Positions 36,101 through 64,000 of a stretch of DNA of 64,000 bases are shown in pieces. Source of the stretch: Elmis aenea (taxonomy: Eukaryota; Arthropoda; Insecta; Coleoptera; Elmidae). The stretch lies in NCBI GenBank assembly GCA_947652605.1, contig OX393577.1, positions 60,040,108 to 60,104,107 on the forward strand, read 5' to 3'. The notes under the pieces were generated by a model that worked only from the letters and a program-made list of their open reading frames with translations, was not told the origin of the DNA and ran no database searches. Positions within the stretch are counted from its first letter, which is position 1. The number at the start of each line of letters is the position of its first letter. The translations under genes were made by a program, and so were the position numbers.

Positions 36101-36455
36101 TAGAAATTAAAGCCGAGAAAGAGGTAGTAACTTTGAATGATTTTTCACTTGTTGCGATGCCAATTGAACTGATTTTAGGATGAAGAAGATGAAACAGAAT
36201 CTAAAGTTGTAAGTCAAGAAATGGAATCTAAAACGAAAATTGAAACTTCTAATCAAAATAATCCGGTATCAGGATGGGTCCACATGAATTCTAAAAAATG
36301 TGGTTTTAAAAAACGTTTGGATCAGTACAATGGTAATGGTTTAAATAGGAATCCTCTTTATGCTGGTGGAGAATTTTGTGCATACACGGAATTAACAGTG
36401 TTGAAGAATCACGGTCATCCGACGGTAGCTTTATTTGCTGACCAAATATTAAGCG
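24144..36455 (+). CDS. CEBPZ: CEBPZ / NOC1 / Mak21 ribosome-assembly protein, 3' end missing
   Basis: Nine exons join in frame: 24144-24275, 24325-24433, 24494-24679, 24738-25021, 29064-29345, 31537-31739, 31845-31992, 35887-36123 and 36179-36455, giving 619 codons plus one base; all junctions are GT-AG. The N-terminus is basic (KTKRKKHVKGGIAKNF). Typical CEBPZ segments follow: LSELFLTDLLRPNQKLTSF, the HEAT-like LINKLGDPSQKVASKA, RPNVASRAQYYAVCFLSQF, then the CBF/Mak21 region GDIDSRMMSALLMGVNRAYP, FYSALYKKLLDP and HPTVALFADQIL. An acidic run (EGDDDEDDEEK) interrupts it, as in relatives. Known role: nucleolar factor for 60S pre-ribosome assembly. The reading should continue past exon 9, but a 200-N gap follows at 38007 and no further exon was found. 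Intron 4 holds a nested Ly6-like gene and a P-like transposon. Confidence 0.92.
25219..25919 (-). CDS. Small secreted Ly6/uPAR-like protein, two exons, nested in CEBPZ intron 4
   Basis: Exon 1 (25919-25673) starts MFLYHFYILLMKFLVIYSEG, a signal peptide, and carries ITCYKS, DNCPRY, ETCHYS and YKCARI. The donor is GTAAAA. The acceptor TTGTTTCAG opens exon 2 (25448-25219), which continues in phase: KKMYGCIAEYRDNAFCNDD, then the closing DCHVCDNDHRCN. The spliced frame is 158 residues with ten cysteines; the closing C-x-x-C-x(4)-C-N motif is the hallmark of three-finger Ly6 proteins. No GPI-type hydrophobic tail is visible; instead the last ~25 residues are polar and encoded by short repeated GTGCATTCCGT units, so the true 3' end may differ. 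It lies on the strand opposite to CEBPZ. Family assignment is inferred from the cysteine pattern; function unknown. Confidence 0.55.
26291..28440 (+). mobile_element. Degenerate P-element-like transposon in CEBPZ intron 4
   Basis: Terminal inverted repeats are visible: the left (26291-26375) has CCGAGGCCTTCGTTATACTA then GCGGGCCG and GTGGTGGGGATAAAGGCCGA; the right (28366-28440) is the same inverted. Between them, plus-strand pieces match P/THAP9-type transposases: LKMNALGAITFMQLISNWW, then GQRLRDQYTEPITNLQHENL, then in a shifted frame FVLLEKFQTDPLEERLGQ, then LLKLKSAIYGNFEIK, and past the inserted MITE YLDRGGLKIPKDFIVKIL. The N-terminal THAP region is missing and several frames are broken. 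No clear 8-bp duplication was found. Known: P elements are DNA transposons best studied in flies; THAP9 is a domesticated relative. Confidence 0.8.
27158..27776. mobile_element. Tc1/mariner-type MITE nested in the P-like element
   Basis: Flanked by TA on both sides (27156-27157 and 27777-27778). The inverted ends extend about 60 bases: CAGGGTGTGTAAAAATTGGC then GGAAGCGCTACACGTGGCGA at the left, and their inverse at the right. At 619 bp it has no transposase frame. It separates two parts of the P-like transposase. Confidence 0.8.
29399..31484. mobile_element. Large foldback element D1 in CEBPZ intron 5
   Basis: Bounded by TA (29397-29398, 31485-31486). The left arm starts CAGGGGGGACCAAATTCGAA; the right arm ends TTCGAATTTGGTCC-like with CACCCTG. 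Arms of roughly 500 bases are inverted copies (GGGGTATCTCGGTTACCGCA against TGCGGTAACTGAGATACCCC). The centre contains a second inverted pair (CTTGGGGCAAGAAGGCT / AGCCTTCTTGCCCCAAG) and a minus-strand acidic, serine-rich frame at about 30615-30775 with one stop. 2,086 bp. Confidence 0.7.
32311..33428. mobile_element. Foldback element D2 in CEBPZ intron 7
   Basis: Starts GAGGGTGGTCCAAATTCGAT after a TA and ends CGAATTTGGACCACCCTG before a TA at 33429. Arms of over 500 bases are inverted copies (GGTATCTCGCTTAATATTTA / TAAATATTAACCGAGATACC). The TA at its right end also serves as the left TA of element D3. Confidence 0.7.
33462..34115. mobile_element. PIF/Harbinger-like MITE nested in D3
   Basis: The ends form a 22-base inverted repeat with two mismatches: AGGTGCGTTCGGGACG at the left, and AGTTGCGTTCGGGACG when the right end is inverted. 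It is flanked by ATG on each side (33459-33461 and 34116-34118), a 3-bp duplication. Relatives of D3 read CATGGGTATCTCGC uninterrupted, which confirms the insertion point. PIF/Harbinger usually duplicates TWA, so the superfamily is tentative. Confidence 0.65.
34501..34950. mobile_element. Tandem pair of a ~225-bp hairpin MITE
   Basis: Two near-identical copies, 34501-34722 and 34723-34950. Each starts AGCTGTATTACACTATACAA and is self-complementary: TTTCTTGTACAATTTGCTGT pairs with ACAGCAAATTGTACAAGAAA, and CAAGTTACAACACGTC with the GACATTGTAACTTGGC side. The copies abut directly, suggesting tandem duplication rather than two insertions. Confidence 0.75.
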
Positions 36456-36716
36456 GTATGTAATTTATTTTTCTTCTGTATTGATGTTACTAGTGCTTAA
36501 AGTTTGCTGAATATAATATACAATTAACCCTTCAAGGTCTACTAGTTCCATTTAGTTGAATTTGAATACTTAAAAATCCATTGTACCATTCTACACAAAC
36601 TTTTATTAGTAAACCCAAATAAACACTAATTAAATATTATTTTCATGAAATATTTTTATTTTCAATTTTGACCATCTGAGGGTTGATGTTCAGTATTTTA
36701 TTTAAATAATGTGTAT

Positions 36717-37330
36717 GAAGTTTTAAGCCGATTGCTTAAGTTTCAAAAGTTTCCAATTTTTTCTTGAAAAAAGTAAAAAAGTTATTATAGCCTTTGGACT
36801 TTTCAATTTTCCATGGAAATGTTCACCCTTTAGTTTGGACCATCTGAATTTTATAATAATTATTTTGTGTTTAAATAATATCTGTATGAAGTTTTAAGCC
36901 AATTGCTCAAGTTTCAAAAGTTTCCAATTTTTTCTTGAAAAAAGTAAAAAAGTTATTATAGCCTTTGGACTTTTTAATTCTCCATGGAAATGTTTACTCT
37001 TAAGTTTGGACCATCTGAAGTTTAATAATAATTATTTTGTGTTTAAATAATATTTGTATGAAGTTTTAAGCCAATTGCTTAAGTTTCAAAATTTTCCAAT
37101 TTTTTCTTGAAAAAAGTAAAAAAGCTATTTATTATAGCCTTTGGGCTTTTTAATTCTCCATGGAAATGTTTACTCTTTACTTTGGACCATCTGAAGTTTA
37201 TTAATAATTATTTTGTGTTTAAATAATATTTGTATGAAGTTTTAAGCCAATTGCTTAAGTTTCAAAATTTTCTAATTTTTTCTTGAAAAAAGTTTTAAGC
37301 CAATTGCTTAATTTTCAAAATTTTTCAATC
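36717..37330. repeat. Tandem repeat, unit about 172-176 bp, in the CEBPZ intron after exon 9
   Basis: The phrase GAAGTTTTAAGCC starts at 36717, 36888, 37060 and 37236, each followed by a TTGCTTAAGTTTCAAAA segment and a GAAAAAAGTAAAAAAG segment. The last unit is incomplete. The same array appears inverted at about 62905-63518. Confidence 0.85.
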
Positions 37331-37355
37331 TTTTCTTAAAAAAGTGAGAAGGTAT

Positions 37356-37862
37356 ACAGGGTGCACCACGACCCTGAGATTCTTCGATAGCTCCTTTATT
37401 AATGAAAATATCAAAAAATGTTTAATACAAATATTGTGCGAACCTATTTTCTACATAACCTAAAATTATTTTCAAATATACAGGGTGTTTCGTTTGACCG
37501 GCACATATAAAAATTAAATTTTTTTAAATAGAACACCCTGTATATTTTTACATTTTTGGATTCCTCTTAAAATTTACTTTAAAAAATGTATTAGGTTATG
37601 TGGGTTTTAAGTCAACCGTTTTCGTAAAATTTACATTTTTGTGAAAATTTTGAGCGATACAGCACTTTCATTTTTTTTTACATTGAAGTTATTTAAAAAA
37701 GCGGTAAAATTTCGTTTAAAATTTAGATTGACAATAGAATAATTAACACTTTGCGCTAGCTACATTTTAAAAATATTATACAGGGTGTTTTTTACGCTTG
37801 GTCAAACTTGTGAAACTTTAAACATCGATAAGTCATTTTTCTTAAATGCAACACCCTGTATA
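37356..37862. repeat. Cluster of short modules bounded by CAGGGTG and CACCCTG
   Basis: Three left-end modules start CAGGGTGCACCACG (37358), CAGGGTGTTTCGTTTG (37481) and CAGGGTGTTTTTTACG (37782); two have a matching ACACCCTGTATA end 65-80 bases on. They look like solo ends or very short MITEs of the Tc1/mariner type with TA junctions. Confidence 0.5.
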
Positions 37863-38006
37863 TTTTTACATTTTCTTGTAGAGAATTTCATTGTCTTTCG
37901 AAATTATTAAGCATGTCCTATACCTAAAGTTAATATTTTTCGAGCTATCTCGATTTTTATTAGTATTACTACGGCAATTAGAATATTTTAAAGTGGGCCA
38001 TGGACG

Positions 38007-38206
38007 NNNNNNNNNNNNNNNNNNNNNNNNNNNNNNNNNNNNNNNNNNNNNNNNNNNNNNNNNNNNNNNNNNNNNNNNNNNNNNNNNNNNNNNNNNNNNN
38101 NNNNNNNNNNNNNNNNNNNNNNNNNNNNNNNNNNNNNNNNNNNNNNNNNNNNNNNNNNNNNNNNNNNNNNNNNNNNNNNNNNNNNNNNNNNNNNNNNNNN
38201 NNNNNN
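38007..38206. other. Assembly gap of 200 N
   Basis: Exactly 200 undetermined bases, the fixed size typical of scaffolding joins, not a measured distance. Open frames running through it are artefacts. Confidence 0.98.
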
Positions 38207-38456
38207 AATGATCAAGGATTAAAGATTTCAATCCCATACTATTCAAAAAAAATAGCAAAAGCGCGTAAATCACTCTCCAGTTTGCTTATTCGGTAATTTC
38301 GACTTGAGAGTGAAGATTGCGATTAAATTTATGTACTCAATCGGCGGTTGTATACCGTACCGTAGCAATGTAGATAGCAATGCAATTGACAATGGTACAA
38401 GTGCCAAGGGAGCAAGAGATGGCGCTGAAAATACCTATTACACATAATGACAAATT
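38207..38456. other. Start of the middle contig, no gene seen
   Basis: Unremarkable sequence with no frame of note. It does not continue the CEBPZ intron in any way I can recognise. Confidence 0.4.
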
Positions 38457-39542
38457 TACAGTCATTCAAACAGTCTGCAACTAATGTGAAAAATTTTTAT
38501 TATTGATTTCTCAGAAAATATTATTCTTGATAAAAGTTGGTGCATGGTCTAAAACTAATAATAAATTATAAGATGAAAAAAATTCAATAAAAAGTCATGG
38601 AACACTAGATTATAACGATTTTTGAAATATTCGCAAGAGTAAAGTGCCCCTATTTTAGGATATATAAAAAAAAATATAGGAAAAAGTTATTTAGAATCTC
38701 AAAATAAGGCTAGATTAAAATTTTGAAGGTCAAATTCAAATTTTTATTTTTTAAGAAATTTTAACATCTAAAAAGTCTGCAACAAATGGAAAAGTTTTTT
38801 ATTATCGATTTCTCAAAAAATTATATTCTTGATAAACGGTAGTGCATGGTCCAAAACTAATTTTAAATAAAAAAAAATTTAATAAAGTCATAGGACACTA
38901 GATTTTAGCGATTTTTGAAATATTCGCAAAAGTAAAGTGCTTAAAATTTTGTAATAATTGTAATTTTGGAATTTGACCGTCAAAATTTACATCTAGTCTT
39001 ATTTTGAGATTCTAAATAACTTTATTCTACAATTTTTTTGTATCTCTTAAAATACAGGCACTTTACTCTTGCAAATATTTCAAAAATCGCTAAAATCCAG
39101 TGTCCCATGAATTTTTATCAAACTTGTTTTTATCTTAAAATTAGTTTTAGACTATGCACCAACTTTAATGAAGAATAAAATTTTCTGAGAAATCAATAAT
39201 AAAAAACTTTTCCATCTGTTGCAGACTTTTTGAATGTTAAAATTTCTTAAAAAATAAAATTTTGAATTTGATCTTCAAAATTTAAATCTAGCCTTATTTT
39301 GAGATTCTAAATAACTATTTCCTATAAATTGTTTTTGTATCTCATAAAATAAGGGCACTTTGCTCTTGCAAATATTTCAAAAATCCTTAAAATCCAGTGT
39401 CCTATGACTTTTTATTAAACTTTTTTTCATCTTAAAATTAGTTTTAGACCATGCATCAACTTTTATCAGCAATAAAATTTTTTGAGAAATCAATAATACA
39501 AATGTTTCCCATTTGTTGCAGACTTTTTGAATGACGCTGTAT
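38457..39542. mobile_element. Foldback element, family E
   Basis: The left end is TACAGTCATTCAAACAGTCT and the right end inverts to TACAGCGTCATTCAAAAAGT. Inside, a block with CTAGATTTTAGCGATTTTTG and AAGTAAAGTGC occurs twice in each orientation, so each arm is itself duplicated. A partial copy lies at 7425-7735. No coding frame. Confidence 0.7.
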
Positions 39543-41869
39543 ACATGTTGTTAAATATAATACTTGCAACGACAATTATTTATTTCAATTTTTTTGTTTA
39601 CCGGGGCGGCGAAACGTACGTTAGCACGCGGGCGGCCAAGTACTCAGAAACGGCACTGTCCGAGGGATACGTTGTAAGTCATCAAACACTGATACTTATG
39701 TATGATGTAAACGTTAAAATGAAATTTACAGGGTAAATTTAGTAGTCAGTAGTATACATAATGTACTTGCAACATATTTATTACCGAAAAACGAGTAAGT
39801 ATTGCATAAAACGTTCACCAAAATTTATCGCAACTACTCTATTATTGATTTAGTTCCGACATCGTCTATCCATGCTAGAGAAATAAATAGCCTAATAAAA
39901 GGAATGAAATTTTTGTTGCAATAAATCTGACGCAACATTAGAAAATGAAATTTGGCACGGGTCCGGTCACTGATAAACCCTGACCTGACTGCTGGACATT
40001 TTTTAAATATTATTTATGTTAGCCAAGCTGTTTGATCTCAATGTTAGATTAATGTTAATACTTTGGAAAATTATAAATTACGACTATTAGATTCTGAAAT
40101 TCAACTAAGCTAGGAGCAGCAAGAATATAAATAACTTATAATTTTTCGATTTTCCGGTCAGTGATGTCGTCGGGAGGAAATAAATTTTGCATATTGTCCG
40201 CTTTCGGCTTATTCCGTTTCAAGCAATTTCTATCTCAGTTTCGAACGAAACGGAACAGTCAGTCGATACTTTGTTTTGAAAATATGTAAACAAAACGTGG
40301 ATTCTCAAAGCTCAGTAAAACTTTAACATCGTATCCATAGTAACAATATGACCAAAAATTGGTCATTTGTTAACTTTAATGCAGCTTTGTGCGACCGGGC
40401 ATGCGTTATTTAAAAATCAGCCTGATATTGTGTCCTTGTGTAATCGAGTTTTGCGTTTGTGAAAAATTTGAATAATAAAACATTCAGACAATAAGAAAAG
40501 CCAGTATAGACAGGTCCGATCCTTCGTTTTTCCGTTTATAGACACTACTAACTTTTCTTTGCCCCATTGAACATTAAATTTGAGTAAAATGTCTTTTTCC
40601 CTCCTTGTTAAGTCTTATAACAAAGCAAGAAAAAGATTCATCTTTATCATTTTAATATGTTTTGACAGCAATCGGCAATTAAAAACAAAAAATATTTGGT
40701 TCGTTTTTATCGGGACGAAAACGAAATATTTCGTTTTTCTTTTTGAATAACCGAAATTTAATAATGGTTAAAAGAGGTTTTACCGTCTTTTTTAGCCTCC
40801 AAGTCGAGGACCAATTTTTTCTTAGTCATCAACCTCTTTTTACAAAAACCAGAGCAGAGAACTTTCTAAAGAATAATCGCCAAATGTCAAAATGACAGTG
40901 TTGGCAACTCTATTAATACGATGAAACCCCTATTATTCGAGTATTCGATTATTCGGATTATAAATACTTCGTATGAATTAATATGTAAATCACAAAACAA
41001 ATTTGGCGTCATTGTTTTGTACTGTCGGTAATAAATGTGAGATATAAAATATTTTTGATGAATTTTAAAGCCTATTTACATTTTTGTTTCCGTTTGTTAG
41101 TAATCGTTGGGCATCTGCTAAATTGTAAACGGCGATGTTTGGTTTTGATCATTATGGACGGCATAATTTGGACTAGCGAATCGCCATATTAAATTTATCA
41201 AATCGTTTAACACATATAACATACAACCAAATAAATTTAGTCCATTTTATTTAGTACAACACCCGTCAGGTGCAAAAACACAACTAGTTTGTCAAACCGT
41301 AGATTATCAACGCTAAATGTCATATTTTAAAACCCTTTGGTTGTCCAATCAAGTGTATATTATTTACTGATGATTCCATGAACAAATTAGAAACATAGAA
41401 TATGTGTACCGTTACTTGTATTGAACAAAATTGCAAGTATTAGCAACAAAGTTGTTAGTACATAATGTATATGGATAAAAGTGAAGCTCACTTACTTCAA
41501 GTGAGATATTTTACTGCCTAGTTGGAGTCTTCACAACATAGATAGTAAATTCGCTTTTATGTTCAATGAATAAAAATTAGAAACTGATAAAATCGGTTAA
41601 AACCGGTTTAAGGAATTATTCATTTCGTTTTCGTTCTTGAACGAAAAATAATAATTTAGTTTTCGTCCTTATAAAAATTTCGGTTAATTTCGTTTAATGT
41701 TTTCGTTCCGTTCTTTGTCCATGTCAGCAATAATAAAAAAGTAATTATTGAAAAAATGTTATTATTAACAAAAACCAGATGCAAAATGTAAGAAAAGATG
41801 TTTCGTCCTTGTAAAAAGCGCGATATTCAACGTGTTGATTGAATACAATCTGTAACAAGTATCTAGGGG
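39543..41869. other. Intergenic; one GC-rich coding-like island
   Basis: At 39601-39672 a GC-rich patch is open on the plus strand (YRGGETYVSTRAAKYSETAL) and followed by GTTGTAAGT, a donor-like site, but no AG acceptor sits just upstream. The rest is AT-rich with no recognised genes or complete elements. Confidence 0.35.
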
Positions 41870-43400
41870 GTTTAAAAAAGTTCCGAGCGCAAGTTTACCA
41901 AAGTTTACTTTTACGTTAACTCTGGAAAAGAAACTTTTACTGTTAACTGAAAATCCGATGCTCTTTCTTCGAGGAATTTCTGTATTACTATCGTGATTAA
42001 AAACTAATAATGGTTTAAAGATTAAGTGACTTTATTTAATATTTCTCAAACAGTGTTACGAAGCTGTCAAAAATATAAAAAAAAATAGTTTTAAAAAAAT
42101 TTGAAAGTTGGTCGTCAAAACATTTGCAAAAAAAATGCTACCACCAATTGAGCTATTTATTTTAAAAGGGCAGAAGTCACTTTTACGTGATTTTAAGGTA
42201 TTGAATGTCTTGTATTTTAATGGGCATAAAAATATGTATGCTAACTATGAAGAAATTTTACTTATTATTTCCTATCTTGGTTACTTATATTTTCTTTAGT
42301 ATACGTAATTTTGCACAGACTTTAAAGAATCGTCATTTTGCATTACTGTAAAGTGACATTAGTGTAAAGTGACTTAAGCCACTTTTAAAATTAATACTTT
42401 ATAAAAACTACAGACTTATGTTGATTTTGTAGGATATGTTTTACTGAAGTGACATTTGATAAGAAAGTAATTTGAGAAAATTGATGAGTAAATTATAAAA
42501 TATAGGTAATTTATATAACGCATTTCATTATAAGTTTATTTAAGTATTTTTCAGTGTCATTAATATTCATGAAATATATAAGTAAGTCATTACTAAATTC
42601 ATCGGTACATTTTAAAATATAAGTATAAGTACCTAATTTATAAAACGTATTTTATGTAAAAGTTTATTCATGTATTGAATCATTGTCATTAATAGGAGTG
42701 ATAAAGTCTTCAGACTTCCACTTTGTCTTATATTTTTATAATGACTGTCATAAATTGGGGGCAATAGGGAAATAGGCAAATCCTTCATTATGTCATTTTC
42801 AAAATAAATGTAATTGCACTTCTGTTTAACAATACATTTTCTATTGACGTAAACAGTAATGATTTTGAAAGAAATAGCAAGTAAAATGTTTTAAAGAATT
42901 AAATACCATACCATAATCGTAAACAGCTTTAAATCATTTTTTGCAAAAGGTGAGTTATGCCGCTTTTAAAATAAAAAGCTCATTTAAATGTTTAACATGT
43001 TGATTAAATATAACTTTTTAAAAATTGTTAAAGGCGGTTTTTGCAAAAGTTTAAGTGTACGTTTAATAATTTTAGTAAAAACTGTTAATTGAAAATTAGA
43101 TGCCTTTTTTCAGATAACTTCTACATTATTGTCGTGATGAAAGCTTTCAAAAGCTTAAAAAAAAACGAAAAATAAATGATATGTGAAAAACATTTGAAAT
43201 TTGCCTGTCGAAGCAATCGCAGTAACAAATGCTATCAACCAATTCCTTGCTAATAAAAATATTATTACTAACACATTCATGCTAAATTTAAAGAACTTTA
43301 GGTAGTGAATAAACATGAGTTTCAGTTTTTCAGTAAATTGGTTTACAATGCAATGTTTTATCCAAATTTTAAAAAACACTTTTATTAATTTATCAGAACT
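41870..43400. repeat. Unclassified repeat R1, second copy, within a degenerate ~1.15-kb tandem duplication
   Basis: About 42300-42930 matches the three R1 pieces at 8.2-10.9 kb. In addition, 41930-42200 resembles 43060-43300: both contain TTAACTGAAAATC- or TTAATTGAAAATT-like runs followed by a TATTACTATCGTGAT-like run and then AATGCTACCACCAATTGAGC or AATGCTATCAACCAATTCCT. This suggests an old head-to-tail repeat of about 1.15 kb. Confidence 0.5.
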
Positions 43401-43633
43401 GAACTATCAAATAACATTTACCGACACAGAAATAATACTAGCGACACAAGAATAGTTATTTATGTATCAAGGCCAAAAAGTGTAACACGCAAGGCCGAAA
43501 AAGTACGTTTTGGCCGAGGTGCATATTACATTTTTTGTGCGATCGAATTAAAACCAATTTAAATTTTTAGTCATTTTCAAAATTATAGGTTAGAAACTAC
43601 GTGACATTCTGTCACTGACAGATGACGGCGTAT

Positions 43634-43760
43634 GTACTGCATTACCGGCCCTCTCCTTAGCAACGGCCGTAAAAGTTACTTTTTCGGCCGTTGCTAAGAG
43701 TAACGACCTGAAAAGTAACTTTTGCGGCCGTTGCTAAGAATAGGGCCGGTAATGCAGTAC
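43634..43760. repeat. GC-rich hairpin element with 19-bp perfect arms
   Basis: GTACTGCATTACCGGCCCT (43634-43652) is the exact inverse of AGGGCCGGTAATGCAGTAC (43742-43760). Inside are one CTTAGCAACGGCCG and two CGGCCGTTGCTAAG segments, so two alternative inner stems are possible. The flanks 43500-43800 also show loosely inverted GTGCGATCG / CGATCGCAC. Confidence 0.7.
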
Positions 43761-44233
43761 TTTATGGTTGCTAACGTGTCCGTCAAACAGCTGTTTCTAG
43801 TACGATCGCACAAAAAAGCATTTTTATGCAATAAATGTTTCATCAAAAAATAATTAATGTCTTTGCAAATAATAGCTGCCGACTTTAAGGCTATTTATGA
43901 AAGTTTGTTTTAGGTTAAAAAATCTTTTCTTAAACATAAACGTTTAGAATGTTGATTTTTTGACAAGTTAATGTGTGGTAACGATAAAAATACATGATTG
44001 ATTATTGGAGCTGACAGGTAAAAACGTAGGAAACCTTAACTAATGAATTTACTCATTTAAAAAATTATAAAATATAACATTAGGGCTGAAATAAAAAGCG
44101 TCATGTCTAATTTGATTAACAGTAACAAATGAAGCGTCAGGTTATGTAATTACTAGACAAATGGACATAATATTTGTCGTAAACAAGTCTAACTACCCAT
44201 TTTTTAGTTTATTATAAGCTAACAGCAACATCT
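43761..44233. other. AT-rich spacer
   Basis: No gene or repeat end recognised. Confidence 0.4.
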
Positions 44234-44575
44234 ACAAGGTGTTTTTTAAATATTGCGAAAAACTTTGGGAGGTGATTCCTTATCGAAAATTAAGGGGGGG
44301 CTTTTATACAATTTTATTTCTTAAACGTCTCCTTTTGGAGTTATATACCCTCCTAAAGGGGAGTAGTAAAATTAGGTTTTTATTTTATTTTTCAAATTTG
44401 GAGATGTGTAGGAGAATAATATTTAGTAGATATTTTGTACTTATTGAAAGGTTTCCCATAGTAACATTTTTAATTATCTTCCACCTTCTCAAGGCGCTGA
44501 AAAGTGCGACCCTTGTTGGTTTGTATCAGTACTTTTTGGAGGCTTGAAATTTTACTTTAAAAAATATAAAAAAAT
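44234..44575. mobile_element. Foldback family B, one-arm copy
   Basis: Starts ACAAGGTGTTTTTTAAATAT then TGCGAAAAACTTTGGGAGGT, carries TTAGGTTTTTATTTTATTTT and GCTGAAAAGTGCGACCC, and stops before the inverted half. Confidence 0.6.
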
Positions 44576-45170
44576 AACTTGTGTATTTAATCGACAAACT
44601 TTATCTCATTTTCTGACCTATTCTATTTACGATGAGGTATTTTATCCTTTGCTCTGTAAAATGCAACGAATTTAAATTTGAAAATCGTGTAATCCTGATT
44701 CACCTTGTCAATTATGATTTTTCTCTAAAGAACACGCGAATTTGTTTAAAATGAAAGACATGTTGAGGAGGAAGGACAGGAGAATATGGGGATGATTACC
44801 TTGTTCAAAGCGTGATTTTTCCGATAGGCTGATATAAGTTTCTTAACAAATTTAACTTGCCAAGCCAAAGGTATTGGTATTTCCAACACTGATTTTGGAA
44901 GATTGTTTTAATAGCTTAGGATCTTTAATCACTTTTTAACAGGAGCATACTGTTTTCGGTAACATGTGCAAAGGGAAGTCCTGTCCCTTTTTGAAGCTGA
45001 ACAGAAAAACTCCTTTTATGTTCAAATGATAAGTAAAGATCTATTAACATAATAAGAAGAAGGTGGAGATTTTGTTTAGCACAGCTTACGGTTTTTTGAA
45101 ATCCTCAATAAATTTAGCATTGCCCCTGCAACTGATGACAACAACTTATAAAAAGTTACATTATTTTAAT
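44576..45170. other. AT-rich spacer
   Basis: No supported gene. Ends in the ATTTTAAT that was duplicated by the next element (45163-45170). Confidence 0.4.
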
Positions 45171-45556
45171 CAGGGGTTGGAGCAGTCCAATTTTTTTTAT
45201 TGCTCCGTTCCAGCTCCGCTCCATGCTCCAAATATTATAAAAGTCTTTAAAACAAGTTTATTGATTAAAAAAAATAGTTTTCAAAAACAAAACTTTAATT
45301 TTTTGGATATGTGGAAGTGTCAAAAATTACAATATTTGACACTAACAAAGAAGTGATGTTAAATAAATGTTTGAAAGAACAAACAAAGTATTGATCTTAA
45401 AGGTTGAAAAAAAAAGTTTAAAAAAAATTGTACATAATAAACTGGAGCAGTGGAGCAATCAAAATTATTTGCTACGGACTCCGCTCCTGCTCCGGGCAAA
45501 AACCCATTGCTTCACTGCTCAGTTGCTCCAGCTACGTGCTCCGCTCCAAGCCCCTG
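45171..45556. mobile_element. hAT MITE with perfect 8-bp duplication
   Basis: Begins CAGGGGTTGGAGC and ends GCTCCAAGCCCCTG. ATTTTAAT precedes it (45163-45170) and follows it (45557-45564), an exact 8-bp target-site duplication. Multiple GCTCC/GGAGC words occur near both ends. 386 bp, no transposase. Confidence 0.85.
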
Positions 45557-45564
45557 ATTTTAAT

Positions 45565-47469: not shown

Positions 47470-47695
47470 CAGTGTTTATCAACCTTTTTGAACTTGCGCC
47501 TCCCTTGTCCATATTAATTTTTATTGCGCCCCTTTAAACTAACTGAAAAAAGGATCCTCCATGTTTTTAAATCCGTTCTGTTTCACACTGGTGACTTGTT
47601 TCAATAAATAGATTTCCTTTTCATATCTCCCCGCCTCCCTTCAGATATTTGGTGCCCCCTAGGGGGCTCGCAGAGTAGCATAGGTTGGGAACCAT
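47470..47695. mobile_element. Decayed hAT MITE
   Basis: Begins CAGTGTTTATCAACCTTTTT and ends GTTGGGAACCATTC, the imperfect CAGTGGTTCTCAACC-type inverted ends of a widespread hAT group. GC-richer interior with CCCCCTAGGGGGC. No clean duplication seen. Confidence 0.55.
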
Positions 47696-47789
47696 TCATT
47701 AAAGCAATTACTCTGTTGTGTTTATCACTGAAACCACTTACTGGATTTTTAAGTAATAAGATATGGTAGTTTCCAGACTAGTAAATATA

Positions 47790-52619: not shown

Positions 52620-53282
52620 GAAATTATTTTACATGCCGTTTAGGCCTACACCTCCGTGATCCTCTCACTCTTTTCTATTTTTGGCTTTGGCCTTGCAGTC
52701 TCCTATACCCTTTTCTTTTAAGTCTGATAGAACTGCTTTTCTCCACCGTCTTCTCGGTCTACGTTTCTTCTTCTTGTAATTTGGTGTTTTCCAGGCTATC
52801 GTTTCTGGTGTTCGTCCATATGCCATTTTTTGATATGACCCAGCCACTGTAATCTTTTCGCTTTTATCACTAAGTCAATTAATTGCTGGTCGCTTATATA
52901 CCTATCTCATAAATTTCCCTGTTTGTTCTTCTCTCATACCCTTGTTCTGTTTTCCTTCCTCCCAACACTCTTTAAAGTATTTTCCTCCTCTCCCATATCT
53001 GCAATCTTTCCTGTGTTTTCTTATTCAGTATCCAAGTTTCACAGGCTGTTGGTCGCAATAATGCTTTGTAAAGACGGAATTTAGCATCTCTAGATAACTG
53101 TTTCGCCGTTAGTAGTTGGTTCAAGGCTCCGATACATTAATTCGCTTTTATTAATCTTGCCTGTATTTCTTTTTCTTCATCAGATTTTTTCGTTATTCTG
53201 GAACCAAGATAGACAAACTCATGCACTTCTTGCAGACTTATTTTTCCCAATGTCCTAGTTATTTCTAGGATTGCATTCTGCT
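52620..53282 (-). pseudogene. Remnant of an RTE-type LINE C-terminus
   Basis: Minus-strand fragments: SRDAKFRLYKALLRPTACE, then DQQLIDLVIKAKRLQWLGHI, then TPNYKKKKRRPRRRWRKAVL, with stops between. This is the post-RT C-terminal pattern (W-GH-x, R-PR-R-x-W) of RTE-like elements, clearly older than the copy just upstream. Confidence 0.6.
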
Positions 53283-53284
53283 GA

Positions 53285-54690
53285 CTTTTATTTATTTATT
53301 AAATTACACCCAACAGGGGTAAACCCCAATCAGGGCGATATACAATAATATAATATACGTAATAATATATGTAACATTATAGGTACTATAAATGTGTGCA
53401 TTAAGAAAAATCAATTAATTTTATCATACAAATCTATCCTCAGATATATACATAATACATAATATAACTATGCTTTTATTAATCAGCCAAAACATAAAAA
53501 AAATATCACAAATAAATATATGTGCATTAATTAATACAAAAATAAATCATATTGAACTGGTGCACGTAAAATCAGTAAAGCTTTGTTTTTGAAAGTTGAA
53601 ACACTACAATTATAAAAAATATCAATGTCTGAAAAAATATTTGCCACCTTACACATTCTGTACAAAGGTGACACCTGAAGCAAATTAGTACGAGGTTGGT
53701 TCAAATAAAATGTACTAGCCCAACGGCTGTTTGATCGAGGCACTAAAAAGGAAATTTTATTTAATAGATCTATAGTGACATAGACTTTGTGATTAACGAT
53801 TTTGAAAATATACACGTGATCCAGCAAACACCGTCTTCGCTCAAGGGATATAAGCTGCAATTCACTCAACATAGTTTTATAAGATGTTAAATATGGATAA
53901 AGACCAGTCTGTTTAAAAATTATATAACGTACGAACCGTTTTTGAACGGCTTCTATTTGTTTTATAAAGATTTCATAAAAAGGATTCCATATGACAGAAG
54001 TATATTCCAATTTGGTTCTCACAAAACAATTGTACAGAAAATAAAAAGAGCTAACATGTTTAAAGTGAATAGTGTTCCGCAATACGAACCCCAATGATCT
54101 AAGTGCTGCCTCTGTACTTTTACGTATATGTTCAGCAAAATTTAATTTTGGGTCAAACATAACTCCTAAATCGTTAATTTTCGTTTTCCTTCCCATCAAA
54201 ATGTCTTTCATTGTATACTGAAACATTATTGGACTATGCTTCCTGTGATATGATACCAGCGAGCATTTAGCAATGTTAAAGTGCAACTTATTTTCCATGC
54301 TCCATTGATATAATATTGTTAATGTCATTTTGTAGAGACTCACAATCACTGACTGATCTCACATTCAACCATAATTTTAGGTCATCTGCAAAAACTAAAT
54401 TACTAGAGTATTTTATGGATAGTGGCAAGTCGTAAATAAAATGTAAAAATAATAGTGGACCGAGATTAGAACCTTGGGGCACCCCTGAACTAACTTTATA
54501 TTTGAAAGAATAGCAGCTATTATATACAACATACTGAACTCTGTTTGTTAAATAAGAACGAACAAGATGAAGTAATTTTAAAGAGAATCCAAACGAATGA
54601 AGTTTATCTAACAAGATATCAAAATTTACTTTATCGAAGGCTTTTGCAAAATCAGTATATAGGTAGACATTTACATTTCTTCTGGTTTAA
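53285..54690 (-). mobile_element. 5'-truncated LINE with FADD reverse transcriptase
   Basis: Minus strand: NVYLYTDFAKAFDKVNFDIL, SSGVPQGSNLGPLLFLHFIY, NLVFADDLKLWLNVRS, then after a frame break near 54300 WSMENKLHFNIAKCS, INDLGVMFDPKLNFAEHI, and a C-terminal part with KLEYTSVIWNPFY and EAVQKRFVRYIIF, ending QYDLFLY at 53531. A 3' UTR follows with a GGGGTTTACCCC palindrome and an (AATAAATA)n-like tail at 53285-53300. The 5' end is cut within the RT near 54690. It abuts the RTE remnant, probably inserted into it. Jockey/CR1-like superfamily by motifs; clade uncertain. Confidence 0.8.
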
Positions 54691-56063
54691 TTGTAACTTC
54701 ATCTTAAAAATTATTTTACAATCTTTTATTTCTTTAAAATCAATAAACGTAGAATGCAAAATGGAAAGAAAAAACTTATTAGAATATTGTTAAACATTTT
54801 TACATTAAATTAATTTTAATTTTGCAATTTTTTTTGACTGCCACAAGGGAGTGGGATTCTTTGTGGGCCCATAATCGTTGCTATCTCTTGTTATAGGGTG
54901 CTATGTCTCTGCTTGTCTTTTGTTTTAACTTTTAACGCACAATTTACTATTCACATACGTGGTCTATAAAAAAAATCCCTCTAGCTACTGACCGTATTCA
55001 GCATTTTCCCCTTCAATCCGCCGATGGCATGTGTTCCTTTGAGCTTCACAAGCAAATTTTGATTAAACTATTTAATATTTATGGTAAATATAGAAACTGA
55101 ATATTCTGCGTAACGTCCATGAACTATTCAATCACGGTCTTTGCTCTTTTTTTAACAACACAAGCGGCATTTGATTAAAACATTTAATATTTATCATAAA
55201 TTCAGATTCAGACTGCGTTTTCAGTCAAGTTTCGCTGCTTTTTATGAGCTTAGCATATGCAATGTTGGAGACTGCTTGAAGTAGGCGCTCTAAAACGTTT
55301 TCATCTTTACATTTCTTCACACTTGGGAAGGCAGAGAGACGTTATAATAGAAAGTCGGAATGCGATATGAACGCTTTGCGGTAGGATTAACAACATTCGG
55401 TTTAGATGAGTAGACAATTTACATATTCACATTTATAAAATCTTAAGTTATTTGTTGGCTTATCCGGTCTACATGGCGCAAAATGTTTTATTCGAACCGC
55501 TATTTCTATATAGTGAAATACTAAAAGCTCGCTAGAGTATCATTAAAACTTGAGAAGCAAAATAAAAAGGATTTCTTTCGCTGTCAAATAATGGTGTCGA
55601 TACACTTTTTTTATTTTCGCTACAAGCAATAAAAGAAAGTTCAGTGATTGGAAAAAAATTGTCGCACAGTTACAAAGGATTTAATCTTTTCGGCTTATCG
55701 CGATGTATTTTGTAAATGTTTGTATTGCATGACATAAACACACACGTTTAATATAATCATTATTATTAAGTAGGTAGTTTAAATGGCCAAGGATAATTAT
55801 TTTATCGTTGTAAAAAGTTACTAAACTTTAAAATAATTCAAAATTTTGAAGTTACGTATTTTTGACAATTTATAAAAGTAATTCTTGGCCTAAATTTTAT
55901 TGTTTTAGTAGTCCTGACAATAAAGTTGTACTTTTTGATTGCAATATTTAATTACGTGACTGACGGAAATTCTTGTTTAAAAATTTCATTTCAGAACGTA
56001 CTATTTTTGACAGCAACTTCTAAGAAAATACCGTGGAAGAAAATCAAAATTCGTCATTAGTCT
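54691..56063. other. Intergenic, no supported gene
   Basis: AT-rich with no convincing frame, splice pattern or element ends. Confidence 0.4.
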
Positions 56064-56768
56064 GTTTCTTACAAAGGAGGGTCACGATATGTTGTCGCTA
56101 GAATCTGATCAAGGTTGTGTTTATTGCATCAAGAACATCAAAACTAAATGTTTTGCACAGTTATACCAGCCGCTGGCCATTTCCTTCGGGAAAATAGGGG
56201 GAAAACTAAAAAGTTCAATAATGAAGGTAATTTTTGCGAACGCGTTTGCTATGAAACCGTCAGAGATAAAATCAAAATTCTTTTATTTACCGATGCGCGC
56301 ATCCTTTGCAAGTAAAATGGTGCAAAATTTTTGAAAAAATCTTAAACGGTTCCGGAGAAAAGCGAAGCCTTTGTAAAAACGATTTCGCCTATGTTAAACT
56401 CCTATGATTTAGATTTAGTTATACAACTTTTAAAATCATAGCGCTTTTGGCAGGGGTTTAGTTTTTGACGTTTTTCTTCGGAACCGTTCAAGATTTTTCA
56501 AAAACTGTATCATTATTCTACTCGCAAAGGATGCGCGAATTGGTAAATAAAAGAATTTAGATTTTATCTCTGAAGGTTTCATGGCCAACGCGATCGCAAA
56601 AATTACTTTTATTATACAACTTTTCAGTTTTTCCCTATTTTTCCGAAGGAAATGGCCAGTGGCACGTATAACTCTGGAAAACATTTACTTTTGATGTTAT
56701 TGATGCAATAAACACAGCCTTGATCAGATTCTAGCGACAACATATCGTGACCTTCCCTTGTAAGAAAC
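56064..56768. mobile_element. Foldback element, family A, complete copy
   Basis: Starts GTTTCTTACAAAGGAGGGTC and ends TTCCCTTGTAAGAAAC, inverted arms of about 340 bases sharing GATCGCAAAAATTAC- and ATGAAACCGTCAGAGATAAA-like runs with the 5035 copy. The two open frames inside are mirror images produced by the arms. Confidence 0.75.
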
Positions 56769-57819
56769 GATATAAAATCAATTTTGTCCAGAAGTAATAA
56801 ATAAAATAGCAATAATCTGTTTCCAGCCCCGAATCTTGTAATTAAATTAATGAAAAATTAACTAGAACTTTACCTCTACTGAGAACGATAATTGCAAAAA
56901 CTTAAGAGGAAGAAAGGAACTGTTGTTTAGAAGGAAAGTCACTTTGCGTTAAAACATCAGGTAACTCCAATTCTGGTGACAGATGTCTTTTTTGTCCTTT
57001 TCCCAACGATTCAGTAGCACTCGGTTTAGCAAAGATTTTGTCCAATGTTGTTTGTTTTTTAAAACTTTGTGACGAATATTGGAGTTTTGAGCGAACACCA
57101 AAGCAATTTTTTGCCAAAAAAGTGTCGAACATTGAATTTGAATAATATAGGAGCTGACAAGTGTAGAGGTTTCACTATATTTGCTTCTACATATACTAAG
57201 TTACGGTAGTGTACTAGATGACAGAACTGAAAGCAGCAAATTAAATGAAATATTTAAGAGCCGCTACAGATGTAACTAGACAGAATTAATAATAACATTA
57301 TACGAGGTTGGTTAAAAGTACATTCTATGGACAACAAAATTGAAAAGGTGGATGGATCATCTTACATGAATGAAAAAAAGTTGAGTAGCGAAACAAATGT
57401 GGAAAGAGATTGTTGAGAATTTTTGTACAACTTCATACCTCCACAGACTCTACACCGTTATGGTAAAAGAGGGCAGATTATAACTATAAATAATTGTAAT
57501 TCTTAATTTAAATGAATTTGATACCAATTGGTACCCTATGCACATACAAATTTTAAAGCATGTTTCTATACAGGGTGTCTCAAACATCATTACTGCCTCG
57601 AATATCTCTTTTGTTTTTAAAAATAAGCCTTATGAACACCAAAGAATTAAAAAAATGACAGAAAAGCGTAACAATAAATTCGAAATGTGTTTGTTAACTT
57701 TGTTCTAGAAGCGCCAAGTTTAAATGAGAGAAAATGCGAGTATCTAGTAATTGAAAATACTGAAGATATCTTGCCTTTAGAAATAAACGTGATAAAAGCG
57801 ATGAGAAGATAACAAAATA

Positions 57820-57822
<3 letters not shown>
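56769..57822. other. Intergenic; possible transposon ORF tail on the minus strand
   Basis: A minus-strand frame at 56902-57132 contains SFKKQTTLDKIFAKPSATES, which resembles the polar C-terminal tails of pogo/Tigger-like transposases (a PIP-box-like QTTLDKIF), but no catalytic domain is near. CAGGGTGTCTCAAACATC at 57573 is a solo CAGGGTG-type end. Confidence 0.3.

Positions 57823-57858
<36 letters not shown>
57823..57858. repeat. (AT)n microsatellite
   Basis: About 18 uninterrupted AT units. Confidence 0.95.
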
Positions 57859-57861
<3 letters not shown>

Positions 57862-57902
57862 AAACGTCAAACTTGCCTCCGTATGTATACGTGTAAAAGT
57901 AT

Positions 57903-57930
57903 TACTCGCCTCCGAAAACGGAGGCGAGTA
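57903..57930. repeat. Perfect 12-bp GC-rich hairpin
   Basis: TACTCGCCTCCG, a four-base AAAA loop, then CGGAGGCGAGTA. Single arms recur at 57872 (CTTGCCTCCG) and 57938 (TCGGAGGCGACTA), so several alternative stems are possible. Function unknown. Confidence 0.7.
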
Positions 57931-57959
57931 AGTAAAATCGGAGGCGACTAGGTATCCCC

Positions 57960-58979
57960 GTGTATATGTGATTTAAATGCTTAAAGACGTCACGGACAAG
58001 CGCATAGCGAATTTTATGGTGGAGGCTAGTTCGATGGTTATACATATACAGTTATACACTTGAGTTAACAGAAATGTTATTAGGTGGCGCCACCAACTAA
58101 TACACATATACATGTCCATAGACATGCTTGACTGACAGACCTCCACACACACAACACACTTTCTTGCGTCCGAAACTTGGCAAACGCGCAAGGAGGCACA
58201 TTAGTATTTTGTATGTATGCTTATCAAAAATAACCATTGTGGTGTTTGAAGAGGGTTTTAAGTGGAATAGCGTAAAACAAGTGGCGGGAGCACATTTAAA
58301 ATTAGGACTTAGTGGTATCACACAAAATTATATTCTGGATGCAAATTGATCAATACTTACTAAAAACGAGTAATCCTTAGTAAACAACTTCCAAATTAGA
58401 GCAATTAATAAGAAATTAAACTTTTAACATCTAACAAATGAGCTGTCTAGATTTAAAGCCCGCTATGTGACTTTTTAGATCCAAAATCTGCTAATAAATA
58501 TTTGCAATTTAGATGATGAAAACAAACGAATTTTATCTTAATTCTGTTTCTAGATATTCGTAATAAAGTATTAATTTAAAAACGTTACTGAACTTGATTA
58601 TTAAATTAAATAAAAAAATAATATAAATTATTAAAAAAAACTAGTGAAAAATTTAAAGCGGGTTTTGAGTTGAAACTCTTCAAATGTTAGTTAATTTTTA
58701 TGCAATTTGTTGTTTATGTATTGGTTTGTTAGAAAATTCGAAGCATCCGATCTAAGTGATACTAAAATTGTGTAAAATTATTATAATTTATTTGTTCAAA
58801 TGTTATGGTATAAAATGAAACAACTTTTGCTGTAATAGTCATTATTTATTGACAAAAGAAATAGGTGATGTAGATTGGAACTTGGAATTTTAAAAAAATC
58901 AGTTTGTGGAAGGGGTTACTAACTTTTCTTTTCAAAAGAAATAGGAACAATAATTTTTGTAGTAATTTAAAAATTAAAC
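57960..58979. other. Intergenic, no supported gene
   Basis: AT-rich. A 73-codon plus-strand frame at 58128-58349 has no recognised motif. The mitochondrial similarity begins only at about 58980. Confidence 0.4.
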
Positions 58980-59287
58980 ATTACTTTTGACGAGATTTAC
59001 TTTACTTACTTTAATAATTTGTATATCGTCGTTGTTTTAAATATTTTATAAGAATTTTAATGTTCAATTATTAAAATAAAAATTTAAAGAAGAAATGGGT
59101 TACAATAAATTTATTTAAATGGTTTAATAATTGAAATATTCATCATTAAATTGGATTTGAAAGTAAAAATGTTTAATTAAGCAGTTTGATTTAAGCTCTA
59201 AGATATGTACATATCGCCCGTCGCTCTCATTTAATTTGAGATAAGTCGTAACAAAGTAGGTGTACTGGAAAGTGTACCTAGAATGAT
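58980..59287 (+). pseudogene. rrnS: Nuclear copy of mitochondrial 12S rRNA, 3' part
   Basis: Contains conserved insect rrnS stretches in order: TTTAATAATTTGTATATCGT, then GAAATGGGTTACAATAAATT, then ATATGTACATATCGCCCGTC with GCTCTCATTTAATTTGAGAT, and GTAACAAAGTAGGTGTACTG. The upstream rrnS part is absent. It sits among nuclear transposons, so it is a NUMT. Confidence 0.85.
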
Positions 59288-59358
59288 CAGATTAGAGCTT
59301 GTTAGAAAGTTTTTTTATTTACATTAAAAAATTAATTGTGCAATTCAATTTAATTTGA
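59288..59358 (+). pseudogene. trnV: Nuclear copy of mitochondrial tRNA-Val (TAC)
   Basis: The 7-bp acceptor stem CAGATTA/TAATTTG can form with one G-T pair; the D arm is GCTT/AAGT; the anticodon stem has five A-T pairs around the loop TTTACAT, anticodon TAC at 59320-59322. It joins rrnS to rrnL without spacer as in insect mitochondria. Still foldable on paper, but a nuclear copy should not act as a tRNA. Confidence 0.8.
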
Positions 59359-59774
59359 ATTTTTTAATTTATTTTTATTTGTTTTAATTAAATGATTTTT
59401 TTGTTTTGTTATTTAGATAGAAAAAAATTTTAAAATTATAGTTTATTAGTAAAGTGATTAAAAATTTAAATATTTTGAAAATTCAATTGTTTATAAGAAG
59501 AATTGATTTTTCGTACCTTGTGTATCAGGGTTTATTAAATGGACATTTTTGAGATAGTTAACCGGAATGAAATAAGAGTTAGTTAGTTATTTATTTTATT
59601 GTTAAATAAATATTTTTAATAGTTAACTAGTAATGAAACGTTATTCGTTTTTTAATATATCTGGTTTTTTAAGAAAAAAATTTAATTTTTCTTTTTTTTT
59701 AATTCTCTTAATTGTTTAATTGTTTAATATTAGATTAGAAATGTTGAGTGGGATTAGCTGTTCATAATACTATC
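59359..59774 (+). pseudogene. rrnL: Nuclear copy of mitochondrial 16S rRNA, 5' part
   Basis: Conserved rrnL 5' segments: CGTACCTTGTGTATCAGGGT, AACGTTATTCGTTTTTTAAT and TTAAGAAAAAAATTTAATTT, ending GAGTGGGATTAGCTGTT. It is cut at 59774, where the hAT element begins. With the two preceding entries it forms one collinear NUMT of about 795 bp. Confidence 0.85.
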
Positions 59775-60945
59775 CAGGGATGGAATAACGTTTTAAATCG
59801 TTACGTTATTGAATAACGTTATTTATTATTGGTTTTCGTTACATAACGTTATAAATAACATTAAAAAAATGAATTGTTATGTTATATAACGTTACATAAA
59901 TTATCTTAAATAATGCGAAAAAATTCGGGAGGTGATTCCTTATCGAAGATTAAGTGGGGTTTTTATATAAAATTTTTTTCTTAGACGTCTCCCCTAAAGG
60001 GGATCGGTAAAATTAGGTTTTCATTTTATTTCTCAAATTTAGATAAATGTAAGATAATGATATTCGGTAGATGTTTTATACTTATTAAAAGGTTTCCCAT
60101 AGTAATATTTTTAATCATCTCCCACCTCCACAGGGGGCTGAAAAGTGCGACCCCTGTTGATTTAAACTTTTTTTTGTAAGTTTAATTTATTTAGAACATT
60201 TTTTATTCTTTAGTTTTTCTCGTAAATCCTACAACATAAACAAACCATGGTAACCACCAAAATGAATCGTTTTATATTGGAATATTTGATGGTTCATATT
60301 CATTCACAAAAACTGTAGGTTTAAAGAAAAAAATTAAAGAAAAAAAAAACTTCTAAATAAATCAAGTTTTCAAAAAAAAAATACATTGCTAGATTTCAAC
60401 CTGCCAAAACGTTCTAATAAAAAAAACAACATTGGTCGCACTTTTCAACCCCCTGTGAAGATGGGAAATGATTAAAAATATTAATATGGGGAACCTTTTA
60501 ATAAGTATAAAACATCTACCAAATATCATTTTCCTACATAAACCCAAATTTGAGAAATAAACTAAAAACCCAATTTTACCGATCTCCTTTAATGGGGTGT
60601 TACTCCGAAAGGAGATCCTAAAGAAAAAAAAATTATATGAAAGACCCCTCTTAATTTTCGATAAGGAATCACCTCCAGAATTTTTTCGCATTATTTAAGA
60701 AACATGCTGTACAAAAATAATTTTTAGTTGTAACTCTGAAATTATTTTTGGAATCTGAAAAGTAAATTTAAAAAATAGTACAAATTTACGTTGAGATATT
60801 ATTATTTTCATTTTAATTTTTAAAATAGAGACAAAATATTATATCTTCTGAAAATAAAAAGATTGCCATATAAAAATTTAATTTATAGAAAATAACGATA
60901 TAAAATAACTTTTAATGAAACGTTATCGGTTATTATAACGTTATA
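59775..60945. mobile_element. Nonautonomous hAT element (CAGGGATGG ends), copy 2, incomplete
   Basis: Starts CAGGGATGGAATAACGTT immediately after the mitochondrial copy and runs parallel to the 8336-10009 element, including the nested family B foldback (59904-60715) but without the GGTAATGGCGC element. It is interrupted at ATAACGTTATA by a mariner insertion; its other end should lie beyond the gap. Confidence 0.75.
59904..60715. mobile_element. Foldback family B copy nested in hAT copy 2
   Basis: Starts CTTAAATAATGCGAAAAAAT and ends with the inverse ATTATTTAAGAAACATGCTG. Longer than the copy in the first hAT because it keeps both GGGGCTGAAAAGTGCGACCC-type blocks and the central ACCATGGTAACCACC segment also seen at 18310. 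Confidence 0.65.
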
Positions 60946-61845
60946 CAGGGTGGTGCTTTTTTCGATGCTCACCATTGCTATCTTGGAAACGGTAAGAGAT
61001 ACAAGGTCGGTTAAATTAGAGAAAAGTTGCACATTTTTATGGCGATTGAGAATCTGAAAAGAAATCCTAAATATTTTGATTCGTTTTTGATTTATTACAA
61101 AAAAACTGAAAAATGTGATTTTAGAAAAGTATTATTATTTTCCCTACCACTGACTCTATTTCATTTAAACTTGGTCACTCTATGTTTTTGACCGTCCTGG
61201 GTTTGATGACGTCAACAGAAATTTTCTAAGCCTTCTAGATTTCAAGTTGCGATAGTCAACTTTTTTATTTCTTATGACCGCCATATTGGATTTTTGCACC
61301 ATCAGACAGACAAAAAAATTAGCTTTTCAAATTGGTAACCAAAATACCTTTTTTCTTTCAAAAAACTTGTCGAAATTTGAAAATTTGTATAAATAATCTA
61401 CAAAATCGAGAATGCTCTGAAAAACAAATTGAAACTATGATATAAATAAAAGATTGAACATTTTATTGGTCTAATGATAACAAATTGAAAATAAATTTAA
61501 AACACCAGATATAAGTAATTATTTAAATTGTTCAAAGTGTCCGCCGTTATGTATTATACAGAGGTCAGTTTTTAAATTCATTTCGTCCACTGCCTTTAGG
61601 ATAGTCTGTCGCGAAATTGAGTCAAATGCATTTTTTATTTTACGACGAAGATGTTCAATATTATCCGTGGGGGTTGCATAAACAACATGTTTTACATTGC
61701 CCCACAAAAAGTAATCCATGGGCGTTAAACATGGCGATCGTGGAGGCCAATAAACAGGACCAAACGTACCAAGCCAATTTTGAAAGCGTGCATTTAAATA
61801 TTCTCTTACAATTCGGGCGTTGTGAGGACCAGCTCCATCTTGCTG
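60946..61845 (-). mobile_element. Tc1/mariner-type element cut by the gap
   Basis: Its end CAGGGTGGTGCTTTTTTCGA follows a TA inside the hAT sequence. The transposase (next entry) reads toward this end on the minus strand, about 570 bases from it. The other half of the element is in the 200-N gap or lost. Confidence 0.7.
61519..61845 (-). CDS. Mariner/IS630-type transposase, C-terminal 108 residues
   Basis: The frame enters from the gap with QQDGAGPHNARIVREYLNAR, then FGPVYWPPRSPCLTPMDYFL, and ends NGGHFEQFK. The aspartates in QQDG and PMDYF are two residues of the expected catalytic triad, about 40 residues apart by my count. The usual SPDLTP reads SPCLTP. The visible frame has no stop or frameshift, so this copy may be young. 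The first catalytic aspartate and DNA-binding domain are not visible. Confidence 0.75.
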   Translation of the reverse strand, partial: QQDGAGPHNARIVREYLNARFQNWLGTFGPVYWPPRSPCLTPMDYFLWGNVKHVVYATPTDNIEHLRRKIKNAFDSISRQTILKAVDEMNLKTDLCIIHNGGHFEQFK

Positions 61846-62045
61846 NNNNNNNNNNNNNNNNNNNNNNNNNNNNNNNNNNNNNNNNNNNNNNNNNNNNNNN
61901 NNNNNNNNNNNNNNNNNNNNNNNNNNNNNNNNNNNNNNNNNNNNNNNNNNNNNNNNNNNNNNNNNNNNNNNNNNNNNNNNNNNNNNNNNNNNNNNNNNNN
62001 NNNNNNNNNNNNNNNNNNNNNNNNNNNNNNNNNNNNNNNNNNNNN
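61846..62045. other. Assembly gap of 200 N
   Basis: Second fixed-size gap; it ends the middle contig inside a transposase. The following 183 bases (62046-62228) extend the inverted arm beyond where the left arm was cut by the first gap. Confidence 0.98.
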
Positions 62046-62228
62046 TATCAAGAGTGCTAGAGTCTTTGAGACAACATCTACGGCTGTGCGTAGAACATGA
62101 ACAAGGATATAATTTTAAACAATTTATACGATAAATTTCGGGGAAATGGGGTACATTTTTAGCCTAAAATTAAAGTTGCAGCTCTTTTTATTCTTTTGTT
62201 TAAAAATTCTTTGAAAAATTACGACTTA

Positions 62229-64000
62229 CGTCCATGGCCCACTTTAAAATATTCTAATTGCCGTAGTAATACTAATAAAAATCGAGATAGCTCGAAAAAT
62301 ATTAACTTTAGGTATAGGACATGCTTAATAATTTCGAAAGACAATGAAATTCTCTACAAGAAAATGTAAAAATATACAGGGTGTTGCATTTAAGAAAAAT
62401 GACTTATCGATGTTTAAAGTTTCACAAGTTTGACCAAGCGTAAAAAACACCCTGTATAATATTTTTAAAATGTAGCTAGCGCAAAGTGTTAATTATTCTA
62501 TTGTCAATCTAAATTTTAAACGAAATTTTACCGCTTTTTTAAATAACTTCAATGTAAAAAAAAATGAAAGTGCTGTATCGCTCAAAATTTTCACAAAAAT
62601 GTAAATTTTACGAAAACGGTTGACTTAAAACCCACATAACCTAATACATTTTTTAAAGTAAATTTTAAGAGGAATCCAAAAATGTAAAAATATACAGGGT
62701 GTTCTATTTAAAAAAATTTAATTTTTATATGTGCCGGTCAAACGAAACACCCTGTATATTTGAAAATAATTTTAGGTTATGTAGAAAATAGGTTCGCACA
62801 ATATTTGTATTAAACATTTTTTGATATTTTCATTAATAAAGGAGCTATCGAAGAATCTCAGGGTCGTGGTGCACCCTGTATACCTTCTCACTTTTTTAAG
62901 AAAAGATTGAAAAATTTTGAAAATTAAGCAATTGGCTTAAAACTTTTTTCAAGAAAAAATTAGAAAATTTTGAAACTTAAGCAATTGGCTTAAAACTTCA
63001 TACAAATATTATTTAAACACAAAATAATTATTAATAAACTTCAGATGGTCCAAAGTAAAGAGTAAACATTTCCATGGAGAATTAAAAAGCCCAAAGGCTA
63101 TAATAAATAGCTTTTTTACTTTTTTCAAGAAAAAATTGGAAAATTTTGAAACTTAAGCAATTGGCTTAAAACTTCATACAAATATTATTTAAACACAAAA
63201 TAATTATTATTAAACTTCAGATGGTCCAAACTTAAGAGTAAACATTTCCATGGAGAATTAAAAAGTCCAAAGGCTATAATAACTTTTTTACTTTTTTCAA
63301 GAAAAAATTGGAAACTTTTGAAACTTGAGCAATTGGCTTAAAACTTCATACAGATATTATTTAAACACAAAATAATTATTATAAAATTCAGATGGTCCAA
63401 ACTAAAGGGTGAACATTTCCATGGAAAATTGAAAAGTCCAAAGGCTATAATAACTTTTTTACTTTTTTCAAGAAAAAATTGGAAACTTTTGAAACTTAAG
63501 CAATCGGCTTAAAACTTCATACACATTATTTAAATAAAATACTGAACATCAACCCTCAGATGGTCAAAATTGAAAATAAAAATATTTCATGAAAATAATA
63601 TTTAATTAGTGTTTATTTGGGTTTACTAATAAAAGTTTGTGTAGAATGGTACAATGGATTTTTAAGTATTCAAATTCAACTAAATGGAACTAGTAGACCT
63701 TGAAGGGTTAATTGTATATTATATTCAGCAAACTTTAAGCACTAGTAACATCAATACAGAAGAAAAATAAATTACATACCGCTTAATATTTGGTCAGCAA
63801 ATAAAGCTACCGTCGGATGACCGTGATTCTTCAACACTGTTAATTCCGTGTATGCACAAAATTCTCCACCAGCATAAAGAGGATTCCTATTTAAACCATT
63901 ACCATTGTACTGATCCAAACGTTTTTTAAAACCACATTTTTTAGAATTCATGTGGACCCATCCTGATACCGGATTATTTTGATTAGAAGTTTCAATTTTC
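62229..64000 (-). repeat. Right arm of the 1,772-bp inverted duplication (with 36235-38006)
   Basis: Reverse complement of 36235-38006 with constant coordinate sum 100235 and no difference in the segments compared. It includes the CAGGGTG modules, the ~172-bp tandem array and exon 9 of CEBPZ, and continues past the window edge. Confidence 0.9.
63780..64000 (-). CDS. CEBPZ: Second copy of CEBPZ exon 9 (partial)
   Basis: Minus-strand copy of 36235-36455 with the same donor (GTATGT) next to 63780. It encodes NNPVSGWVHMNSKKCGFKKR through VALFADQILSG. Probably the same exon assembled twice, not a second gene. Confidence 0.8.

Follow-up and report, generated by a model that had tools for sequence, protein, structure and literature searches.

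The mirrored arms at the end of this stretch of Elmis aenea DNA are most likely an artefact of assembly and not a genuine feature of the genome. Judged from the sequence, the contig that carries the right arm was very probably laid into the scaffold backwards. The inverted duplication is best read in this way because flipping that contig restores the exon order and the strand of a split CEBPZ gene and creates an in-phase splice junction. The wrong scaffolding proposed in the initial annotation is supported.

The window, that is, the whole stretch of 64,000 nucleotides analysed, corresponds to C2:60040108-60104107; the genome searched amounts to 516.4 Mb in 302 pieces. Flanking sequence (260 kb) was added, and coordinates below 1 or above 64000 continue the window numbering. 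The resulting 324 kb consist of four contigs:

-119999 (and beyond) to 38006, left contig
38007..38206, 200-N gap between the left and inner contigs
38207..61845, inner contig, 23,639 bp, minus strand relative to its upstream match in the left contig
61846..62045, 200-N gap between the inner and right contigs
62046-86860, right contig, 24,815 bp
87061 onwards, next contig

The duplicated pair coincides with the contig ends and the gaps, and the gaps lie between its two members on one scaffold. PMC9516828 associates false duplications, of heterotype or homotype, with half depth and with gaps separating the members of a duplicated pair on the same scaffold, the latter being named a hallmark. The present case resembles those described there in that the pair sits on one scaffold with gaps in between, a gene is broken and a probable haplotig lies nearby. 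Unlike them, the pair is inverted, its first 5122 bases are identical and one of the copies also bears the exons that the gene lacks. In a YaHS assembly described in PMC13173280, 939 gaps total 187.8 kb, or 200 bp each. The 200-N gaps observed here agree with YaHS, and by analogy the same tool may have been used for this assembly.

The two arms are:

36235..38006, plus strand, left arm, closing the left contig, within an exact 5122-bp mirror starting at 32885
62229..64000, minus strand, right arm, reverse complement of the left arm, running past the window to about 75440

As initially annotated, the arms are identical and inverted (1772 of 1772 bases agree between 36235-38006 and the reverse complement of 62229-64000), and the left one ends at a 200-N gap, position 38006 adjoining the N run 38007-38206. 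No longer inverted repeat is reported for the window, and the match is far beyond chance. Their equal length (1772 bases each) does hold, but it is trivial and set by the window edge, because 36235 simply mirrors the last base of the window, 64000. To the question raised earlier of whether the mirror continues beyond 64000, the answer is yes, at 100% at first and then with allele-like divergence. The exact mirror covers 5122 bp (32885-38006), flanking sequence included. Past it, the divergence is roughly 1%, with indels. The copies differ at 26 of 2000 bases in 26500-28499 and at 62 of 929 aligned bases within 25000-25999, with insertions of hundreds of bases. Homology ends at 24869 on the left and at 75440 on the right, inside a CEBPZ exon, and a tandem array of 164-bp units begins on the right contig exactly where it stops (75441). 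The right contig is colinear with the left one for 13 kb only, with 0% divergence, then about 1.3%, and is then rearranged. In these local comparisons (mirror, exon and array matches), only matches above cut-offs for length and, partly, identity were considered. A 176-bp tandem array of about 3.4 copies (36701-37293), located in a CEBPZ intron, is identical in both arms.

Two simpler readings were rejected. Contig ends that the assembler simply left overlapping account for part of the picture at most, as the homology spans 13 kb and includes divergence. The gap at 38007 does not hide a plain overlap with the inner contig either, since 37507-38006 matches the latter over 22 + 17 bases only.

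The CEBPZ pieces, numbered after P0001, an 865-aa relative, are distributed as follows:

24171..25021, plus strand, left contig, CEBPZ exons for residues 4-224
29061..29345, plus strand, left contig, exon for residues 224-318
31543..31995, plus strand, left contig, exons for about residues 319-436
35887..36123, plus strand, left contig, exon following residue 436, with an acidic stretch, reaching about residue 517
36182..36455, plus strand, last CEBPZ exon on the left contig, to residue 587, mostly in the arm, followed by the donor GTATGT
63774..64000, minus strand, right contig, within-window portion of the second copy of the exon to residue 587
75446-63778, minus strand, right contig, second CEBPZ set, residues 172-587
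75441-76763 (L010:1441-2763), right contig, 164-bp tandem array of about 1.3 kb, fusion point of the second CEBPZ piece
84452-83294, minus strand, right contig near its far end, C-terminal exons, residues 584-855

CEBPZ, also named Noc1 / Mak21, a protein of ribosome biogenesis, is recognisable from a CBF/Mak21 domain (PF03914) on the exon 36179-36460 (26.3 bits, cut-off 22.1) and from pieces that cover residues 4-855 of P0001 on two contigs. The closest relative with a species name is from Exocentrus adspersus (64% identity). Nine of the ten best relatives are so named, all of them presumably beetles; the search scored 7996 candidates, and the best 120 of 318 proteins were considered. A search of the whole genome with P0001 yielded 16 matches, none of them outside the CEBPZ locus. 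Residues 68-171 were matched on the left contig only, and residues 172-588 on both the left and right contigs. Residues 579-834 were matched once, a count that is no proof against weaker copies, since the genome search missed a degenerate C-terminal fragment at 99520-99694 (plus strand) of the next contig, found by local search. This fragment belongs to an old degenerate copy of the first part of the CEBPZ C-terminal exon plus intron sequence, about 82% alike, at 98793-99694 (C2:60138900-60139801).

After the flip, the CEBPZ pieces for residues 4-855 fall in order. The donor at the end of the last left-contig exon (AGCG/GTATGT) and the acceptor on the right contig (TTTGCAG/GTCAAACA) join in phase, giving ILSG-QTVKYSGDPL, close to ILEG-ESIRYSGDPL in P0001. 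CEBPZ is indeed falsely truncated, as had been suggested: its missing C-terminal exons sit on the mirror contig itself. Unlike the known gene, CEBPZ is here accompanied by a second, 5'-truncated piece (residues 172-587). On one strand, the right contig carries first the C-terminal exons and then those for residues 172-587, and the second piece is fused mid-exon to the 164-bp array. When the exon pieces of the second copy are compared with those of the left copy, four of six show 0 differences, one shows 1 in 285 and one 5 in 153, and no stop is found that is absent from the left copy. The start of the next contig lies elsewhere, in a long ORF.

The contig breaks themselves fall in a repeat:

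37352..38006, plus strand, start of a foldback transposon arm in the CEBPZ intron; break of the left contig within this arm
62046..62883, minus strand, the same arm opening the right contig, exceeding its left-contig version by 183 bases
86034-86858, transposon arm in the opposite orientation at the far end of the right contig, 97.5% alike

The arm is identical over 655 bases between the end of the left contig and the near end of the right one. The right arm had been noted to run 183 bases further to its gap; these bases (62046-62228) belong to the transposon arm too, beyond the point where the left contig stops, and compared with the inner contig they gave no match at E <= 0.01. In the genome search, the terminal 655 bases of the left contig recur at 38 or more further places with 96-99% identity, and at least three shorter matches lie beside such places in the opposite orientation. 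With 40 of 2832 first-look candidates scored, this copy number is a lower bound. Among five other copies examined, L004 and L005 have inverted arms of about 870 columns around a 180-bp spacer. L008 has the same spacer and arms of about 870 columns in two pieces, L007 has arms of only 156 bp and L006 has none. Long inverted arms, a short spacer and many copies identify a foldback transposon. The element shares these traits with foldback transposons such as Tetris of Drosophila virilis (PMC4079207), and it may belong to a named foldback family. Since hundreds of such places may exist, the position of two contig ends in opposite arms is weak evidence by itself. A target-site duplication was sought at the transposon join, and only uninformative AT repeats were seen at the ends. 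The CEBPZ-side flanks (37340-37352 and 86020-86032) are short inverted repeats of each other, agreeing at 11 of 13 bases, a feature not seen by eye at L004 and L005. In the parts of the literature covered, nothing direct was found on HiFi breaks at inverted repeats or on foldback elements in beetles.

The following course of events can be proposed. The breaks at the end of the left contig and at either end of the right one lie within the arms (about 870 bp, with a spacer of 180 bp) of a foldback transposon in the CEBPZ intron. The scaffolder would then have joined the contigs with 200-N gaps, the right one reversed, and an unpurged second-haplotype contig would have been inserted between them. 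In the flipped orientation, the second arm of the transposon would lead into the CEBPZ C-terminal exons, which would complete the gene. A spacer, the 164-bp array, the second CEBPZ piece (172-587) and the same transposon would come next. The repeat would thus be a direct, 5'-truncated partial duplication of CEBPZ located downstream, and not an inverted one.

The second CEBPZ piece may lie on the same chromosome copy or on the other haplotype. As a tentative proposal, the right contig could represent one unit of a genuine and recent direct duplication of CEBPZ, in which residues 172-587 and the transposon stand next to the C-terminal half, the spacer and the array, with foldback arms at the borders; the hairpin would have both broken the assembly and aided the duplication, perhaps via a circular intermediate, and individuals may differ in copy number. 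The fusion coincides precisely with the border of the tandem array (75441-76763), which would also fit a chimeric right contig, in which the C-terminal half and the 172-587 piece come from different places or haplotypes and were joined at the 164-bp array. The two CEBPZ copies do diverge like alleles. It should, however, be noted that the array is only 1.3 kb long, so that long reads would cross it, and that the spacer copy of 26059-26878 shares 99.0% identity with its counterpart on the same contig, against 97.0% with the one on the left contig. We regard a chimera as unlikely.

The initial annotation held that a duplicated haplotype or a collapsed contig end explains all of the observations. 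According to this explanation, the right contig would correspond to the end of the left contig in its other haplotype, or to a collapsed end, retained and inverted. The divergence of the CEBPZ copies (26/2000) does resemble that between the inner contig and its partner (176/15,714), so that an allelic origin of the second piece is possible, and the absence of stops in the second-copy exons beyond those of the left copy also speaks for this view. However, on one strand the C-terminal exons precede those for residues 172-587, which is impossible for an unrearranged allele, and the second piece is fused mid-exon to the 164-bp array. Even if the copies are alleles, this exon order requires a rearrangement or a chimeric contig. 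Moreover, the last 5122 bases are without any difference, unlike the rest. Taken as a whole, the explanation appears improbable. Finally, a real and recent inverted duplication or palindrome, correctly scaffolded and kept identical by gene conversion, which could leave 5122 exact bases followed by a sharp rise in divergence, is scarcely credible, since it would leave the assembly with no intact CEBPZ, its halves lying 47 kb apart on opposite strands, and since both arms stop at contig ends.

If the scaffold is left uncorrected, annotation would yield a truncated CEBPZ and an inverted fragment, and a spurious palindrome or inversion could enter the counts of comparative studies. As a curation check, we suggest that where opposite arms of a single foldback element terminate two contigs, one contig be flipped to see whether a split gene closes.

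The inner contig had been said to carry only repeats. This is incomplete: the four ORFs tested yielded reverse transcriptase or no match, but a single upstream stretch is copied in 15,770 of the contig's 23,639 bases. With blocks kept at 200 or more columns and 95% identity, they align, inverted and in eight colinear blocks, to -32725..-53394 of the left contig, 71-91 kb upstream of that contig's end. In these blocks, 176 substitutions are found in 15,714 aligned bases (1.1%), an allele-like colinear divergence; about 7.9 kb of the inner contig have no such upstream partner. Because of this inverted colinear copy at 1.1%, and of a reverse-transcriptase insertion present in one version only, the inner contig is likely a misplaced, unpurged second haplotype of the upstream stretch. 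ARAGORN called a tRNA-Val (tac) at 59287-59359 of this contig, a site for which Rfam gave no match at gathering scores. The insertion (50503-52475), located at one block boundary, contains a reverse-transcriptase ORF (PF00078) and is a non-LTR-type element. It is flanked by the 12-base repeat GTAACCTTTTAT, of which the matching site on the left contig has one copy.
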